From Cupriavidus sp. IDO (GTDB taxonomy: Bacteria; Pseudomonadota; Gammaproteobacteria; Burkholderiales; Burkholderiaceae), in assembly GCF_000812465.1 (NCBI RefSeq), contig NZ_JWMA01000034.1:62001-126000 (forward strand): a stretch of 64,000 nt of DNA, given 5' to 3'. Under the pieces are notes generated by a model. It was not told the DNA's origin. It saw only the letters and a list, made by a program, of their open reading frames with translations, and made no database searches. Positions 27,296 to 57,609 of the stretch are shown here, one piece after another (the first letter of the stretch is position 1; each line of letters starts with the position of its first letter). The translations under genes were made by a program, and so were the position numbers.

Positions 27296-27946
27296 ATGAC
27301 CCGCCGCCACCCGCCCCCTCCGAGCCCGACCAGTCCGCCTGGCCCGACGTCAGCCGCGGGCAGCCGCTCCCTGCGCATCCTGCTGGTGCGGGATCCGCAT
27401 GATGCCAGTCCGCTCAATGTCGAGACCATCCGCGCCGGCCTGGTCAGCGCCGGCTTTGCCGAGATCGAGATCGTGGATGCCGACCTGCGGCTGCCGGACG
27501 TGATTACCGCCAGCCAGCCCGATCTGGTCATCATCGCTTCGGAATCCGCGGCGCGCGACACCATCGAGCATGTCTGCGTCTCGACACAGCACGCACCAAG
27601 GCCGATCGTGCTGTTCACCGACAACGACGACTCCCAGCGCATCAAGGCGGCGCTGTCCGCCGGGATCACCGCCTATATCGTCGATGGCCTGCGGGCCGAG
27701 CGAGTCAAGACCGTGCTCGATGTGGCCTACGCCCGCTTCGAGCTGGACCAGCAACTGCGTGCCGAACTCGATGCCACCCGCCTGAAACTAGCCGAGCGCA
27801 AGGTGGTGGAGCGCGCCAAGGGCCTGCTGATGCAGGCGCGCGGCATCAGCGAGGACGAGGCCTACAAGCGCCTGCGCAGCATGGCGATGGAACGCGGCCT
27901 CAAGCTGGTCGAAGCGGCCCAGCGCGTTATCGATGTGATGACTTGA
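27296..27946 (+). CDS. nasT: ANTAR antiterminator protein, NasT-like, with degenerate receiver domain
   Basis: 216 aa from the ATG at 27296; its ribosome-binding site is weak and an in-frame TTG lies upstream. After a Pro-rich N-terminus, a receiver-like domain spans about 26-140, then a linker helix and a C-terminal ANTAR RNA-binding domain (KVVERAKGLLMQARGISEDEAYKRLRS). The residue expected to be the phospho-acceptor Asp is Ala81 (PDLVIIASES), so activation by phosphorylation is unlikely. NasT proteins bind two-hexaloop RNA and prevent termination ahead of nitrate genes. Such an RNA lies just downstream, before nrtA. No nasS is adjacent. Confidence 0.88.
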   Translation: MTRRHPPPPSPTSPPGPTSAAGSRSLRILLVRDPHDASPLNVETIRAGLVSAGFAEIEIVDADLRLPDVITASQPDLVIIASESAARDTIEHVCVSTQHAPRPIVLFTDNDDSQRIKAALSAGITAYIVDGLRAERVKTVLDVAYARFELDQQLRAELDATRLKLAERKVVERAKGLLMQARGISEDEAYKRLRSMAMERGLKLVEAAQRVIDVMT

Positions 27947-27971
27947 CCATGCTGCGGCGGTGCGTGCCGCC

Positions 27972-28004
27972 GCACGTCGCTGGTGCAATGCACAAATCTG
28001 GCGC
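27972..28004 (+). promoter_or_regulatory. Putative NtrC binding sites
   Basis: GCAC-N7-GTGC at 27972-27986 fits the NtrC dyad pattern. A degenerate second copy, GCAC-N7-GCGC, lies at 27990-28004. They are about 105-140 bp upstream of the -24 element, a normal enhancer distance, and begin 25 bp after the nasT stop. Confidence 0.5.
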
Positions 28005-28107: not shown

Positions 28108-28122
28108 TGGCACACCACTTGC
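28108..28122 (+). promoter_or_regulatory. Sigma54 (-24/-12) promoter for nrtABC
   Basis: TGGCAC-N5-TTGC, with the key GG and GC separated by exactly 10 bp. It matches the RpoN consensus at every core position. The start is expected near 28133, immediately before the first hexaloop hairpin. Confidence 0.85.
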
Positions 28123-28133
28123 GTTACACGAAT

Positions 28134-28186
28134 ATCGGCCAACGAGGGCCGATCAACATTCGATGCACGCGGCCAACGTGGGCCGC
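28134..28186 (+). ncRNA. ANTAR-responsive two-hexaloop RNA in the nrtA leader
   Basis: Hairpin 1: ATCGGCC / GGCCGAT around loop AACGAG (28134-28153). Hairpin 2: GCGGCC / GGCCGC around loop AACGTG (28169-28186). Both loops are six nucleotides with A at position 1 and G at position 4, the ANTAR-target rule. A terminator follows at 28205. This is the expected binding site for the NasT-like protein encoded upstream. Confidence 0.88.
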
Positions 28187-28204
28187 ATGACATCACGGAC
28201 AACG

Positions 28205-28267
28205 GCGTCCTGAACTGCATCCCTGTTTTCTGGCGAAGGCGGGGTTGCGGATCGGGACGCTTTTTTT
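28205..28267 (+). terminator. Attenuator (intrinsic terminator) ahead of nrtA
   Basis: GCGTCCTGA (28205-28213) pairs with TCGGGACGC (28252-28260), nine pairs with one G-T, closing a structured interior, and is followed directly by seven T's. It ends 14 bp before the nrtA ATG. In the ANTAR model the protein-bound hexaloops stop this stem from forming. Confidence 0.82.
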
Positions 28268-28281
28268 CCTGGAGCCTTGCA

Positions 28282-29595
28282 ATGCCCTCTCGCCTCAAGA
28301 TTGCCAAGCCGCTGCACGCGGCGGTCAATGCCTCCGATGCAGCCGCCGACGCGGTGCCCGCCAGCAACGGGCGCCGCCGCGTGCTGGCCACCTTCGCCGG
28401 CGCCAGCGTGATGACGCTGGTCGACCCGCTGGTGCGCGCCGGGGCATGGGCGGCGGGCTCGGATGCGCCGGAAAAGCCGGAGGTGCGCATCGGCTTCATT
28501 CCCCTCACGGACTGCGCCTCGGTGGTGATGGCCTCGACGCTCGGCTTCGACAAAAAGCACGGCATCAGGATCACGCCGACCAAGGAAGCCTCCTGGGCAG
28601 GCGTGCGCGACAAGCTGGTCAACGGCGAGCTGGATGCGGCGCACGTGCTGTACGGCCTGATCTACGGCGTGCAGCTGGGCATCGGCGGCCCGAAGAAGGA
28701 CATGGCCGTGCTGATGAGCCTGAACCACAACGGCCAGGCCATCACGTTGTCGTCCAAGCTGGCCGAGAAGGGCGTCAAGGACGGCGCCAGCCTGAAGGCG
28801 TTGATGATGAAGGAAAAGCGCGACTACACCTTCGCCCAGACCTTCCCCACCGGCACGCACGCCATGTGGCTCTACTACTGGCTGGCGGCCAACGGCATCA
28901 ACCCGATGCAGGACGCCAAGGCCATCACCGTGCCGCCGCCGCAGATGGTGGCTAATATGCGCGTGGGAAATATGGACGGCTTCTGCGTGGGCGAGCCGTG
29001 GGGCGCGCGCGCCATTGCCGACAAGATCGGCTTCACCGTGGAAACCACGCAGGCAATCTGGAAGGACCATCCCGAGAAGACGCTCGGCACCACCGCCGAG
29101 TTCGTGCAGAAGTACCCCAACACCGCGCGCGCGATGGTGGCGGCCGTGCTGGAGGCATCGAAGTACATCGACGCCTCGGCCTCGAACCGCCGCAAGACGG
29201 CCGAGACGATTGCGGCCAAGTCCTACGTCAACACCGACATGGACATCATCCTGGACCGCATGCTGGGCCGCTACAACAATGGCCTGGGCAAGACCTGGGA
29301 CGACCCCGATGCCATGAAGTTCTACCAGGACGGCTCGGCCAATTTCCCGTTCCTGTCCGACGGCATGTGGTTCCTGACCCAGCACAAGCGCTGGGGCCTG
29401 CTGAAGGACCACCCGGACTATCTGGCGGTAGCGAAGCAGGTCAACCGCATCGACCTCTACAAGCAGGCCGCGGCCGCCGCGCAGGTGCCGCTTCCCAAGA
29501 GCGACTTCCGCAGCGCGAAGCTGCTCGACGGCGTGGTGTGGGATGCCACCAGGGATCCGAAGGCCTATGCCGACGGCTTCAAGATCAAGGTCTGA
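28282..29595 (+). CDS. nrtA: Nitrate ABC transporter substrate-binding protein NrtA (NasF-like)
   Basis: 437 aa from the ATG at 28282, with CTGGAG upstream. A twin-arginine-like leader (GRRRVLATFAGASVM, about residues 32-46) indicates export, probably by Tat. The mature part is the NrtA/SsuA nitrate-binding fold (VRIGFIPLTDCASVVMA; FPTGTHAMWLYYWLAANGI; GEPWGARAI). The export signal argues against it being the cytoplasmic sensor NasS. It is the first gene of nrtABC behind the attenuator. Confidence 0.93.
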   Translation: MPSRLKIAKPLHAAVNASDAAADAVPASNGRRRVLATFAGASVMTLVDPLVRAGAWAAGSDAPEKPEVRIGFIPLTDCASVVMASTLGFDKKHGIRITPTKEASWAGVRDKLVNGELDAAHVLYGLIYGVQLGIGGPKKDMAVLMSLNHNGQAITLSSKLAEKGVKDGASLKALMMKEKRDYTFAQTFPTGTHAMWLYYWLAANGINPMQDAKAITVPPPQMVANMRVGNMDGFCVGEPWGARAIADKIGFTVETTQAIWKDHPEKTLGTTAEFVQKYPNTARAMVAAVLEASKYIDASASNRRKTAETIAAKSYVNTDMDIILDRMLGRYNNGLGKTWDDPDAMKFYQDGSANFPFLSDGMWFLTQHKRWGLLKDHPDYLAVAKQVNRIDLYKQAAAAAQVPLPKSDFRSAKLLDGVVWDATRDPKAYADGFKIKV

Positions 29596-29657: not shown

Positions 29658-30563
29658 GTGAATGCCATCGCCCAATCCACGCCAAAAGGCGCATCCCTTG
29701 CCACGCAGGCCGATCCTGACGCCAGCGAGCGCTCCCGGCGGCGCGAGCTGGAGATTGCCGCGCAGGCGCGCCGCACAGAGCGCCGCGAAGCCCTGGCCGC
29801 ACTCGTGCTGAAGGCCGTACCGCCAGTCTTCGGCTTTGCACTGTTCGTGCTGGCCTGGCACGGCATCGCCACCATGATTCCGGCAATCCCCACGCCTGCT
29901 GCAACGTGGAACGCCGCCGTGCCGCTCTTTGCCGATCCGTTCTATCGCAACGGGCCGAACGACCAGGGCATCGGCTGGAACGTGCTGGCTTCGCTGGCGC
30001 GCGTGGCGGCAGGATTCGGGCTGGCGGCAGTGGTCGGCATTCCGGCCGGCTTCGTGATCGGGCGCTTTGCCTTCCTGAACGCGATGACGGCGCCGGTCAT
30101 CAGCCTGCTGCGGCCGGTCTCGCCCCTGGCATGGCTGCCGATCGGACTGCTGCTGTTCAAGGCCGCCAACCCGGCCGCGATCTGGGCCATCTTCATCTGC
30201 TCGATCTGGCCGATGGTGATCAACACCGCAGTAGGCGTCACGCGCGTGCCGCAGGATTACCTCAACGTGGCACGCGTGCTGGACCTGTCCGAGTGGAAGG
30301 TGTTCACGCGCGTGCTGTTTCCGGCCGTGCTGCCCTATATGCTGACCGGCGTGCGGCTGTCGATCGGCACGGCCTGGCTGGTCATCGTCGCCGCGGAAAT
30401 GCTGACCGGGGGCACCGGCATCGGTTTCTGGCTGTGGGACGAATGGAACAACCTGAAGGTGGAGCACATCGTCATCGCGATCTTCGTGATCGGCATCATC
30501 GGGCTGGTGCTGGAGCACGCGCTGCTGGCGCTGGCCAGGCGCTTCAGCTACGGCAACAGCTGA
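29658..30563 (+). CDS. nrtB: Nitrate ABC transporter permease NrtB
   Basis: 301 aa from a GTG at 29658 with AGGAG 7 bp upstream. A charged N-terminal stretch of about 50 residues is followed by six predicted membrane helices. The binding-protein-dependent permease (EAA) loop is near VARVLDLSEWKVFTRVLFPAVLP. It forms the channel with NrtC/D; relatives also carry sulfonate or taurine, but the context favours nitrate. Confidence 0.92.
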   Translation: MNAIAQSTPKGASLATQADPDASERSRRRELEIAAQARRTERREALAALVLKAVPPVFGFALFVLAWHGIATMIPAIPTPAATWNAAVPLFADPFYRNGPNDQGIGWNVLASLARVAAGFGLAAVVGIPAGFVIGRFAFLNAMTAPVISLLRPVSPLAWLPIGLLLFKAANPAAIWAIFICSIWPMVINTAVGVTRVPQDYLNVARVLDLSEWKVFTRVLFPAVLPYMLTGVRLSIGTAWLVIVAAEMLTGGTGIGFWLWDEWNNLKVEHIVIAIFVIGIIGLVLEHALLALARRFSYGNS

Positions 30564-30595: not shown

Positions 30596-31399
30596 ATGAA
30601 CAAGTTCGTCAGCATTGAAAACGTGGGCCAGACCTTCAAGACGCGCAAAGGGCCGTTCGTGGCCCTGCGCGATATCAACCTGAGCATTGCCGAAGGCGAG
30701 TTCATCACGCTGATCGGCCATTCGGGCTGCGGCAAGTCGACGCTGCTGAACCTGATCGCCGGACTGGCCACGCCCACCAGCGGCGCGCTGATCTGCGCCG
30801 GCCGCGAGATCGCCGGACCGGGGCCGGAGCGCGCGGTGGTGTTCCAGAACCACTCGCTGCTGCCGTGGATGACCTGCTTCGAGAATATCCACCTGGGCGT
30901 GGAGCGCGTGTTCGGCGCCACCGAAAGCAAGGCGCAACTGAAGGCGCGCACGCAGGAAACGCTGGCGCTGGTGGGGCTGACCCATGCCGAGAGCAAGTAT
31001 CCGCACGAGATCTCCGGCGGCATGAAGCAGCGCGTGGGTATTGCGCGCGCGCTGGCGATGGCGCCCAAGGTGCTGTTGATGGACGAGCCCTTCGGCGCGC
31101 TCGACGCTCTCACCCGCGCCCACCTGCAGGACGAGCTGATCAAGATCGTGGCGCGCACCCGCAGTACCGTGGTGATGGTCACGCACGACGTGGACGAGGC
31201 CGTGCTGCTTGCCGACCGCATCGTGATGATGACCAACGGCCCGGCCGCCACTATTGGCGAGATCCTCGGCGTGGACCTGCCGCGCCCGCGCGACCGCATC
31301 GCACTGGCCGACGACAAGACCTGGCACGCCTGCCGCACGGCGGTGCTGGACTTCCTCTACCGCAAGCAGCGCAACCCGGCCTTGCAGGAAGCCGCGTGA
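30596..31399 (+). CDS. nrtC: Nitrate ABC transporter ATP-binding protein
   Basis: 267 aa from the ATG at 30596, with AGGGAGCA upstream. Walker A GHSGCGKSTLL, signature ISGGMKQRVGIARALA, Walker B VLLMDEPFGALD, switch VTHDVDEAV. It is the size of a single nucleotide-binding domain, so it lacks the extra NrtA-like domain fused to cyanobacterial NrtC; NrtD would be an equally fair name. Last gene of nrtABC. Confidence 0.92.
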   Translation: MNKFVSIENVGQTFKTRKGPFVALRDINLSIAEGEFITLIGHSGCGKSTLLNLIAGLATPTSGALICAGREIAGPGPERAVVFQNHSLLPWMTCFENIHLGVERVFGATESKAQLKARTQETLALVGLTHAESKYPHEISGGMKQRVGIARALAMAPKVLLMDEPFGALDALTRAHLQDELIKIVARTRSTVVMVTHDVDEAVLLADRIVMMTNGPAATIGEILGVDLPRPRDRIALADDKTWHACRTAVLDFLYRKQRNPALQEAA

Positions 31400-31464: not shown

Positions 31465-32499
31465 ATGAATCCAGACCAAAACCATCCCACGCCGTCGCCC
31501 ATGACTACGCCTACCGTCACTCCCTTCCCCGCCGCCCGCTTCATCAAGGAAATCGGCCGCGGTGTCAACGGCGCGCGCGCCCTGCAGCGCGAGGACGCAC
31601 ACGCGCTGTTCGACGCCATGCTGGCCGGCCGCGTCTCCGACCTGGAACTGGGCGCGGTGCTGATGGCCTACCGCATCAAGGGCGAGGCCCCGCACGAACT
31701 GGCCGGCATGCTCGAAGCCGCGCACGCGCACTGCCAGCCGCTGGCCGCGCCGCCCGATCGCCAGGTGGTGGTGATCCCGAGCTACAACGGCGCCCGCAAG
31801 CAGCCCAACCTCGTGCCGCTGCTGGCCCTGCTGCTGGCGCGCGAGGAGATCCCGGTGCTGGTGCATGGCTCGCGCCTCTTCAATGGCCGCGTGACGAGCC
31901 TGACGCTGTTCGAGGCGCTGGGTATCCCGCTGTGCACCTCGACCGCAGAGGCCGAATCGCAGCTGCACAACGGCAATGGCGACCATGGCCCGCTGGCCGT
32001 GCTGCCGGTGGACGTGCTGTCGCCGGGGCTGTCGCAGTTGCTGGAGCGGCGCAACGTCATCGGCCTGCGCAATTCGTCCCATACCGTCGCCAAGATGCTC
32101 CAGCCGGTGGGCGAGCATTCCCCGGCCGAAGCCCTGCGCCTGTACAGCTACACCCATCCGGAGTACCGGGAAACCCTCACCGACTATTTCTCGAACGAGC
32201 CTGCCAACGTTTTGCTTGCACGCGGCACCGAGGGCGAAGTGGTGGCGGATGCGCGGCGCGCCAGCCGCATCGACTGGCTGCACGACGGCCACCAGCAGAC
32301 GCTGGTGGATCCGACCGCCGGTTCGCTTGGGGAAGTGCCGGAATTGCCGCAAGGCAGCGACGTCGACCAGACCGTCGCCTGGATCCGTCGCGTGCTGGAT
32401 GGCGAGGTGCCGGTGCCCAGCCCGATCGCCACCCAGGTGCGAGCCATCCAGGAATGCCTGCGCCAGGGCACGCGCGTGGCCTGGGCCAGCCCGCTCTGA
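31465..32499 (+). CDS. ybiB: YbiB family protein (TrpD2-like DNA-binding)
   Basis: 344 aa; an ATG 12 codons later (MTTPTVTPFP) is an alternative start. The fold is that of anthranilate phosphoribosyltransferase, with an N-terminal helical domain (GRVSDLELGAVLMAYRIKGE) and an alpha/beta domain (PSYNGARKQPNLVPLLALLL). The family lacks TrpD activity; E. coli YbiB is reported to bind nucleic acids without sequence preference and to be LexA-regulated. It follows nrtABC by 65 bp, so it may be read through from that operon. Confidence 0.87.
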   Translation: MNPDQNHPTPSPMTTPTVTPFPAARFIKEIGRGVNGARALQREDAHALFDAMLAGRVSDLELGAVLMAYRIKGEAPHELAGMLEAAHAHCQPLAAPPDRQVVVIPSYNGARKQPNLVPLLALLLAREEIPVLVHGSRLFNGRVTSLTLFEALGIPLCTSTAEAESQLHNGNGDHGPLAVLPVDVLSPGLSQLLERRNVIGLRNSSHTVAKMLQPVGEHSPAEALRLYSYTHPEYRETLTDYFSNEPANVLLARGTEGEVVADARRASRIDWLHDGHQQTLVDPTAGSLGEVPELPQGSDVDQTVAWIRRVLDGEVPVPSPIATQVRAIQECLRQGTRVAWASPL

Positions 32500-57070: not shown

Positions 57071-57550
57071 TTATTGCTCGCCCGGCTCCATCTGCGATTG
57101 CAGATAGTTCTGCAGGCCGACCTTGTCGATCAGGTCCAGCTGCGTTTCCAGGTATTCGATATGTTCCTCGGTGTCGGTGAGGATATCGACCAGGATCTCG
57201 CGGCTGACGTAATCGCCGACCGACTCGCAGTAGGCAATGCCTTCCTTGACGGTGGCGTGCGCGGTCTGCTCCAGCTTCAGGTCGCACTTGAGCATCTCGG
57301 GCGTGTCTTCGCCCAGCAGCAGCTTGTGCAGGTCCTGCAGGTTGGGCAGGCCGTCGAGCATCAGGATGCGTTCGATCAGCCGGTCGGCGTGCTTCATTTC
57401 GCCGATCGATTCCTTGTACTCCACGTCGCCGAGCTTCTTCAGGCCCCAGTGGCGATACATGCGGGCGTGCAGGAAATACTGGTTGATCGCGGTCAGCTCG
57501 TTCTTGAGCTGGGCGTTCAGATGCTGGATGACCTTCTTGTCACCTTTCAT
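57071..57550 (-). CDS. bfr: Bacterioferritin
   Basis: 159 aa from the ATG at 57550 with AGGAG upstream. Ferroxidase ligands are in [20 protein letters not shown] and [13 protein letters not shown]; heme-binding Met is in ERILMLDG; the second ferroxidase set is in [14 protein letters not shown]. It is a 24-subunit iron store with heme. It lies downstream of bfd on the same strand, with a hairpin between them. Confidence 0.97.
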
Positions 57551-57584
57551 TGGCGGCTCCTGTTGCATCGGGCCCGCGCAAAAA

Positions 57585-57609
57585 TACGAAACGGCGCCAG
57601 AGGCGCCGT
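57585..57609 (-). terminator. Terminator-like hairpin between bfd and bfr
   Basis: On minus: ACGGCGCC / GGCGCCGT with a 3-nt loop, followed by TTTCG. The T-run is broken, so partial termination is likely, letting bfr have its own or reduced expression relative to bfd. Confidence 0.65.

Follow-up and report, generated by a model that had tools for sequence, protein, structure and literature searches.

How the transcription of a nitrate transporter operon might be governed from its leader RNA is the question raised by the window analysed here, a stretch of 64,000 nucleotides from Cupriavidus sp. IDO in which a nasT-like gene lies directly upstream of nrtA. A preliminary description of the locus proposed a complete ANTAR antitermination leader made up of two hairpins with six-nucleotide loops (hexaloops) and a terminator. 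In our view the observations as a whole are best explained by a NasT-type ANTAR antitermination leader with three hexaloop hairpins (P1, P2 and P3), of which P2 and P3 are essential, and we put the probability of this explanation at about 0.9. Its basis is the anatomy of the leader, its conservation, the compensatory changes in its stems, the overlap of P3 with the terminator and the co-occurrence of the element with ANTAR genes. The corrected choice of switch pair directs experiments to the right hairpin. An ANTAR leader is in itself a known kind of element; what is new is the three-hexaloop form, the link to the Rfam narK RNA (RF03032) and the gap in nitrate sensing.

Architecture of the leader and operon

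The features of the locus are as follows.

27296–27946, + strand: nasT-like gene, 216 amino acids; degenerate receiver-like N-terminus and C-terminal ANTAR domain (residues 161–212)
27971–27987, + strand: NtrC-like inverted repeat CGCACGTCGCTGGTGCA, a possible enhancer; two mismatches in 12, 163 nt before the predicted +1
28108–28122, + strand: sigma-54 −24/−12 promoter TGGCACACCACTTGC; 10 of 10 specified positions, predicted +1 at 28134
28134–28153, + strand: P1, auxiliary hexaloop hairpin AUCGGCC-AACGAG-GGCCGAU; loop 28141–28146, 7 bp
28162–28194, + strand: P2; core GCGGCC-AACGUG-GGCCGC at 28169–28186, loop 28175–28180, 6 bp
28197–28210, + strand: P3, putative switch hairpin GGAC-AACGGC-GUCC; A1/G4 hexaloop, 4 bp
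28204–28267, + strand: intrinsic terminator; 25-pair hairpin 28204–28261 with a 4-nt loop, T7 at 28261–28267
28282–29595, + strand: nrtA, nitrate-binding protein of CmpA/NrtA type (PF13379, 353 bits); twin-arginine-like N-terminus RRRVL
29658–30563, + strand: nrtB, nitrate ABC permease (TIGR01183, 243.8 bits; cut-off 209)
30596–31399, + strand: nrtC/D-type nitrate ABC ATPase (TIGR01184, 339.8 bits; cut-off 291.8)
31465–32499, + strand: YbiB-like gene (NF006005, 443 bits)

The start codons of the nasT-like gene and of nrtA were picked by inspection. As had been proposed, the gene directly upstream of the leader codes for an ANTAR protein (Pfam PF03861, 69.6 bits). P1 and P2 are present where they had been described, each with A at position 1 and G at position 4 of the loop (A1/G4), and the run of seven T's was likewise borne out, 14 bases from the nrtA start. 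The terminator stem, which had been given nine pairs, is in fact larger, with 25 pairs and two 1 × 1 internal loops, and its hairpin takes in the U that opens the U tract, as part of a G·U pair. The two hexaloops that were taken to complete the leader are there, but a third hexaloop hairpin, P3, had been overlooked.

The core of P2 can be extended by an outer helix in which 28162–28167 pairs with 28188–28194. The linker between the P2 core and P3 is 10 nt, or 2 nt if this outer helix forms, and P1 is separated by 15 nt from the P2 core and by 8 nt from the outer helix. Each of the three hairpins has the stem of at least 3 bp and the 6-nt loop with A1 and G4 by which ANTAR RNAs are recognized; the further hallmark, a last hairpin that overlaps an intrinsic terminator, is found in P3 and is lacking in P2, the last hairpin of the preliminary description. 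Nucleotides 28204–28210 belong both to P3 (loop positions 4–6 and the 3′ arm) and to the base of the 5′ arm of the terminator, so that the two structures are mutually exclusive. In the predicted fold the terminator shares no bases with P1 or P2, and for this reason these two hairpins alone would not switch it. When growing 5′ prefixes of the transcript were folded, P1, P2 and P3 had all formed at 28211, and the terminator had replaced P3 by 28260.

The 134-nt leader (28134–28267) folds at −72.5 kcal/mol, compared with −45.6 ± 3.7 kcal/mol for 200 shuffled sequences (z = −7.3), none of which was as low; the terminator contributes much of this low energy. On both strands of the 64 kb the leader holds the sole pair of A1/G4 hexaloop hairpins with stems of at least 6 bp within 70 nt, and the sole triple with stems of at least 4 bp within 90 nt. 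The mean in 30 Markov control sequences (one strand each) was 0 pairs and 0.13 triples, with a maximum of 1. At the other end of the operon, the YbiB-like gene begins 65 nt after nrtC; judging from this spacing it is possibly the next gene of the operon, so that the antiterminated operon may extend past the transporter.

The consensus against which the −24/−12 site was scored, the 12-nt spacing from this site to +1 and the NtrC site consensus used for the inverted repeat are those that we take to be standard. With that spacing, transcription would start where P1 begins, at 28134. A score of 9 or 10 out of 10 is reached in the window and also in 76 of 80 relatives, which were the best 80 of 587 stretches, compared with 38 of 4050 mononucleotide shuffles; one of the four loci without a site, L069, has just 7 nt of upstream sequence. 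Enough upstream DNA to look for an NtrC-like site was available in 70 of 71 sequences (from the best 80 of 587 loci), and a site with at most three mismatches was found in 59 of these 70, the window included, compared with 139 of 1400 mononucleotide shuffles. The shuffles in these tests, as in that of P1, preserve base composition only.

Conservation and pairing of P2 and P3

Of 587 confirmed stretches the best 80, each an nrtA locus, were used together with the window to study conservation. P3 recurs in 71 of the 77 sequences with a sigma-54 site, in five of them by a relaxed rule (best 80 of 587), and was not found in the other six (L026, L049, L058, L070, L087 and L091). In two of the latter, L026 and L070, the sigma-54 site lies 61–73 nt before the nrtA match and the attenuator is apparently missing. 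In L023 (Cupriavidus cauae) the rules applied identify neither a sigma-54 site nor hexaloops in the approximately 250 nt before nrtA; here the nasT stop codon closely precedes nrtA with an apparent terminator remnant between them, which suggests that the leader was lost by a deletion fusing nasT and nrtABC.

The loop type stands out without any selection for it. Of the 251 hexaloop hairpins with at least 4 bp in the 77 leaders (best 80 of 587), 149 are A1/G4 and the next type accounts for 13, and 73 of these 77, all of which have a sigma-54 site (best 80 of 587 loci), carry at least one A1/G4 hairpin. When P3 was located by its loop and the following GT alone, which was possible in 66 leaders (best 80 of 587), the 5′ arm paired at all four positions in 66 of 66; random 4-mers from the same leaders did so in 428 of 13 200 trials.

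Compensatory change was assessed in an alignment of 58 of the 71 leaders with P3 (best 80 of 587 loci), namely those with P3 by the strict rule and P2 by rule. In the window, L014, L015 and L017 the hairpin near P3 was assigned manually as P2, and L021, L022 and L050, which are misaligned in P2, were kept as gaps in the pairing test. The alignment contains 90.2% paired cells, compared with 73.8% after shuffling, and 100 cells with two-sided changes, compared with 36; none of 500 shuffles was as high in either measure. These 58 rows had been preselected for A1/G4 hexaloops, for stems of at least 3 bp (P2) or 4 bp (P3) and for AC/GT closing P3, and the pairing of the inner pairs is therefore partly by construction. 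Covariation, which had been proposed as a check on the leader, is present in the P2 and P3 stems, with a score of 0.449 compared with 0.158 for shuffled alignments and, again, none of 500 as high. When the stem partners were slid against each other, pairing in the 58 leaders fell to 30–54%. Two-sided change affects seven of ten pairs (four of five in P2 and three of five in P3), a count that 99 of 500 shuffles reach and that is thus not above them. The outermost pair of P3 is weak, being unpaired in 37 of the 58 leaders; at two P3 pairs GC changes to AU in both arms together.

The relation of P3 to the terminator is also widespread. In 54 of 71 leaders (best 80 of 587) the 3′ arm of P3 pairs with a downstream segment that is followed by at least four T's in 9 nt, compared with 293 of 3550 trials with a shuffled arm; the remaining 17 leaders fail this simple rule.

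P1 and the identity of the switch pair

The preliminary description had named P1 and P2 as the pair bound by the ANTAR protein, which would leave P3 as no more than a conserved terminator base. The stems in the window lend this some weight, since those of P1 and P2 (7 and 6 bp) are longer than the 4 bp of P3. Among relatives, P1 by rule is missing in 46 of 62 leaders (best 80 of 587 loci). The Ralstonia loci L021 and L022 retain only P2 and P3 and have no room for P1, the predicted +1 being 35 nt from the P3 loop; the corresponding distance is 94 nt in L017, and 67–71 nt in the window and the other eight of the nine Cupriavidus-type loci L012–L020.

An A1/G4 hexaloop hairpin lies between +1 and P2 in 16 of the 62 leaders (best 80 of 587); 32 of the 62 offer 18 nt or more for it, and the 16 are among these. 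Other loop types occur there in at most four leaders each, and the shuffles gave a mean of 0.5 and a maximum of 3. In this count P2 was set in eight rows by the rule of nearness to P3, L018 was left out, and L013 was scored as lacking P1 because of one mismatch. Eight of the 16 P1-bearing leaders are those of the window and the Cupriavidus-type loci; the other eight come from Rhodoferax, Paracidovorax, Variovorax and one uncultured beta-proteobacterium (L072).

A leader was obtained from 25 of 27 sequences of the genus (L107 and L108 gave none), and 23 of these are distinct. P1 fits 22 of the 23 and P2 fits 20; in the three exceptions P2 has fewer than 3 bp or lacks A1. P3 belonged to the search rule in this set. 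P3 ends 77–117 nt from +1 in this set, while the P2 and P3 loops keep a spacing of 25–27 nt in those nine rows of the 58-leader alignment that belong to the genus.

P3 also behaves as more than a terminator base: its 5′ arm is not part of the terminator and is nevertheless complementary to the 3′ arm in every one of the anchored leaders, and its two arms change together at two pairs. On the grounds of conservation, terminator overlap and spacing we have rejected P1 and P2 as the working pair and regard this arrangement as very unlikely. Because P1 is patchy in occurrence, the +1 to P3 span is variable and the P2 to P3 spacing is steady, we take P2 and P3 to be the canonical ANTAR pair and P1 to be auxiliary. 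P3, in competition with the terminator, is probably the actual on/off switch. The kind of element named in the preliminary description thus stands, given the A1/G4 loop identity, stem pairing above the controls, recurrence and co-occurrence with ANTAR genes; the pair assigned to it does not.

Further copies of the element and co-occurrence with ANTAR genes

The gene adjoining the leader is the sole ANTAR match in the genome (PF03861, at a threshold of E = 0.001). A link between NasT and this leader, which the adjacency suggests, is strengthened by this, since no other ANTAR gene was found in the genome. A covariance model of P2 and P3 (R1), trained on beta-proteobacterial leaders, gave three matches in the genome at E = 0.002 or better and four more at E = 0.98–9.2. 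The three are the following.

R1 match 1: the nrtA leader
R1 match 2, contig C111: before a formate/nitrite-family transporter (PF01226, 210 bits)
R1 match 3, contig C95, near 57511–57586: before a NarK-family transporter

The closest NCBIfam names for the C111 transporter are formate transporters, below cut-off, and no sigma-54 site was found at the standard spacing in its leader. The C95 transporter scores 304.5 bits with TIGR00886, just under the cut-off of 311.7. Its leader has an extra stable hairpin between P2 and P3, which does not carry an A1/G4 hexaloop.

The R1 element (E = 0.01 or better) is present in 64 of 250 genomes of the order, including this one (G000). An ANTAR gene is found in 63 of these 64 compared with 62 of the 186 others (Fisher p = 1e-22, a value to be read with the knowledge that related genomes are not independent and that R1 was trained in the same region of the tree). 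The only element-bearing genome without an ANTAR gene, G356, is 67% complete. In four genomes of the same genus (G002, G069, G089 and G190) there is no full-length NasT match; an ANTAR-region match lies in a frame of 468–496 amino acids, perhaps NasR-like, and RF03032 matches are still present.

These distributions bear on the proposal that the leader is simply a constitutive attenuator, or a structure at the end of a transcript, with a working terminator and hexaloops to which NasT does not bind. Although no NasS was found that would render NasT responsive to nitrate, such a structure would not account for the excess of A1/G4 over every other loop type among unselected hairpins, for the near-perfect co-occurrence with ANTAR genes, or for the presence of the element at three loci in a genome with one ANTAR gene, and we consider it extremely unlikely.

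Proposed mechanism and comparison with known systems

In the antitermination mechanism that we favour, NtrC and sigma-54 RNA polymerase would start the transcript at about 28134 under nitrogen limitation, and P1, P2 and P3 are predicted from the prefix folding to form in turn as the RNA emerges. Without active NasT, the 25-pair terminator would capture the 3′ portion of P3, halting transcription at the U7 tract. With active NasT, the ANTAR domains would bind P1 or P2 and then hold P3, barring the terminator so that nrtABC could be transcribed; P1 would be a probable added recruitment site near the 5′ end. NasT binding, termination and a nitrate response at this leader are proposed by analogy with EutV, NasR and NasT.

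In published accounts, the last hairpin of ANTAR leaders overlaps the terminator (PMC3369931, PMC8934654), and the linker between the hairpins of the Enterococcus faecalis eut ANTAR RNA is 5–12 nt (PMC3369931). The EutV/eutP, NasR/nasF and AmiR/amiE leaders, as presented there (PMC3369931), share with the present leader the A1/G4 hexaloops, the short linker, the terminator-overlapping last hairpin and an ANTAR gene. In contrast to their two hexaloops, this leader has three, together with a sigma-54 promoter whose predicted +1 falls at the first hairpin. The same source already includes Burkholderia among its ANTAR RNA matches (Ramesh et al., 2012; PMC3369931). As in the NasS–NasT systems of Paracoccus (PMC3795266, PMC5424462) and Bradyrhizobium (PMC6759348), a NasT-type protein is encoded beside nitrate genes with leader hairpins, and NtrC control of nasTS is reported for Paracoccus (PMC3795266, PMC5424462). 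The present locus differs in that no signal-less NasS was found, the NasT aspartate is replaced by alanine, and the neighbour of nasT is an NrtA with a twin-arginine-like start followed by ABC transporter genes.

The EutV–RNA complex (6ww6; PMC8934654) provides a model of successive binding in which the dimer contacts the hexaloops in turn, and our proposal resembles it. In EutV one hairpin recruits and the next switches, whereas in the present leader recruitment could fall to both P1 and P2, and switching to P3. No paper on three-hexaloop ANTAR leaders was found by a full-text literature search.

NasT and the nitrate input

NasT has relatives in the PDB in EutV (6wsh/6ww6), 1s8n, NasR (4akk) and AmiR (1qo0). 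It gave no Pfam receiver-domain match at E = 0.001, and EutV aligns with it from residue 37. The residues aligned with EutV Lys143, Tyr164, Arg168 and Met172 are identical in NasT (we infer a numbering offset of 2), and those aligned with Asn173, Arg175 and Arg177 are Glu, Gly and Lys, respectively. The position of the phospho-acceptor aspartate is occupied by Ala81. Alanine is found there in 41 of the 41 Cupriavidus and Ralstonia NasT sequences fetched (more than 60% identical, some from the same species), and aspartate in 32 of 47 others. The alanine excludes phosphorylation at this position as the input. We know of no requirement for the phospho-acceptor aspartate in NasT.

No separate NasS was found in the genome, where a Paracoccus NasS query (L198) matches only NrtA at a threshold of E = 1e-10. 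Two of the ten PF13379 matches were inspected for a hidden NasS, NrtA and the next by score (C34); the latter, an ABC binding protein, was rejected, having a Sec-like start and lying beside an ABC ATPase gene. The same query has at least one relative in each of 22 genomes and exactly one in 20. Directly downstream of nasT a NasS relative is encoded in this genome and in five genomes with a close NasT, three of the same genus (G123, G138 and G079) and two of genus g24 (G024 and G113). A twin-arginine-like start, by the strict motif rule only, is present in NrtA at 59 of the 80 nrtA loci (best 80 of 587). The neighbour of nasT is without such a signal in Burkholderia-type genomes (L197 and L199–L202) and in G016 (L203). 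NasS would thus appear to be missing unless NrtA, or a protein that we did not recognize, replaces it.

The question raised is how nitrate could be sensed by NasT without NasS and without a phospho-acceptor. One answer is that NasT constitutively keeps its leaders open and that control is exerted by NtrC and sigma-54 only, which is compatible with the three-hexaloop explanation. The missing NasS and the alanine throughout the Cupriavidus and Ralstonia sequences fit such an arrangement. Against this, an attenuator that is always open would be unlikely to persist in most relatives, and the NasS-family protein NrtA occupies the nasT-adjacent slot that is held by a signal-less NasS in the Burkholderia-type genomes and G016. 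On balance we think constitutive NasT unlikely, but with a real minority chance of being correct. A more speculative answer, which we regard as doubtful, is that the NrtA precursor is the missing sensor: unliganded, it would hold the phosphorylation-dead NasT, and nitrate would free NasT to act on a leader with two recruiting hairpins and a third that switches. Folding of NrtA in the cytoplasm before export is suggested by its twin-arginine-like signal, and, were the proposal true, unexported NrtA would report both nitrate and transporter status.

Relation to the narK RNA

We know of no function for the narK RNA (RF03032) in the literature. Its consensus can be divided into a sigma-54 site, a hairpin CC-AACGNN-GG and the segment CGAC-AAAGAC-GUCG; the latter would form a second hairpin but is left unpaired in the structure line of the model. 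The leader described here resembles RF03032 in the sigma-54 site, the AACGNN hexaloop hairpin and the hairpin that follows, which reads GAC-AAAGAC-GUC in the RF03032 consensus, and differs in its additional P1. The window scores 21.7 bits with the model (E = 0.26), below the gathering score of 43.2, which rules it out as a gathering-level member, and a search of its own genome gave no match at E = 0.01.

At E = 0.001 RF03032 is found in 28 of the 250 genomes, three of them above the gathering score. All 28 have an ANTAR gene (p = 7e-10), and 23 also have an R1 match. The 48 RF03032 loci inspected comprise all 28 of the 250-genome set and 20 of 37 other matches; by loose rules used without a control (sigma-54 score of at least 8, P3 stem of at least 3), a sigma-54-like site together with P3 is present in 45 of the 48, and P2 as well in 44. 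The downstream gene is of the NrtA family in 32 of the 48 and a NarK relative in five (two at 23–27% identity); nasT lies at most 1.4 kb downstream in four, none of four test proteins was found in another four, and three were not called. Most of the matches in relatives are leaders with two hexaloops that precede nrtA- or narK-like genes.

From these sequence features we conclude that the narK RNA would be a NasT/NasR-type ANTAR leader with its second hairpin unannotated, which offers it a function as a sigma-54-driven NasT/NasR antiterminator. No text joining the narK RNA to ANTAR was found in what was mostly non-subscription literature, and an earlier report of the link is possible.

Four RF03032 loci outside the family (L160, L164, L167 and L168) have three A1/G4 hexaloops. 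ANTAR leaders can carry three hexaloops in more than one bacterial group, which provides a natural test of the successive-binding model. In L168, which precedes a narK relative, there is a fourth hexaloop candidate with a stem of 3 bp.
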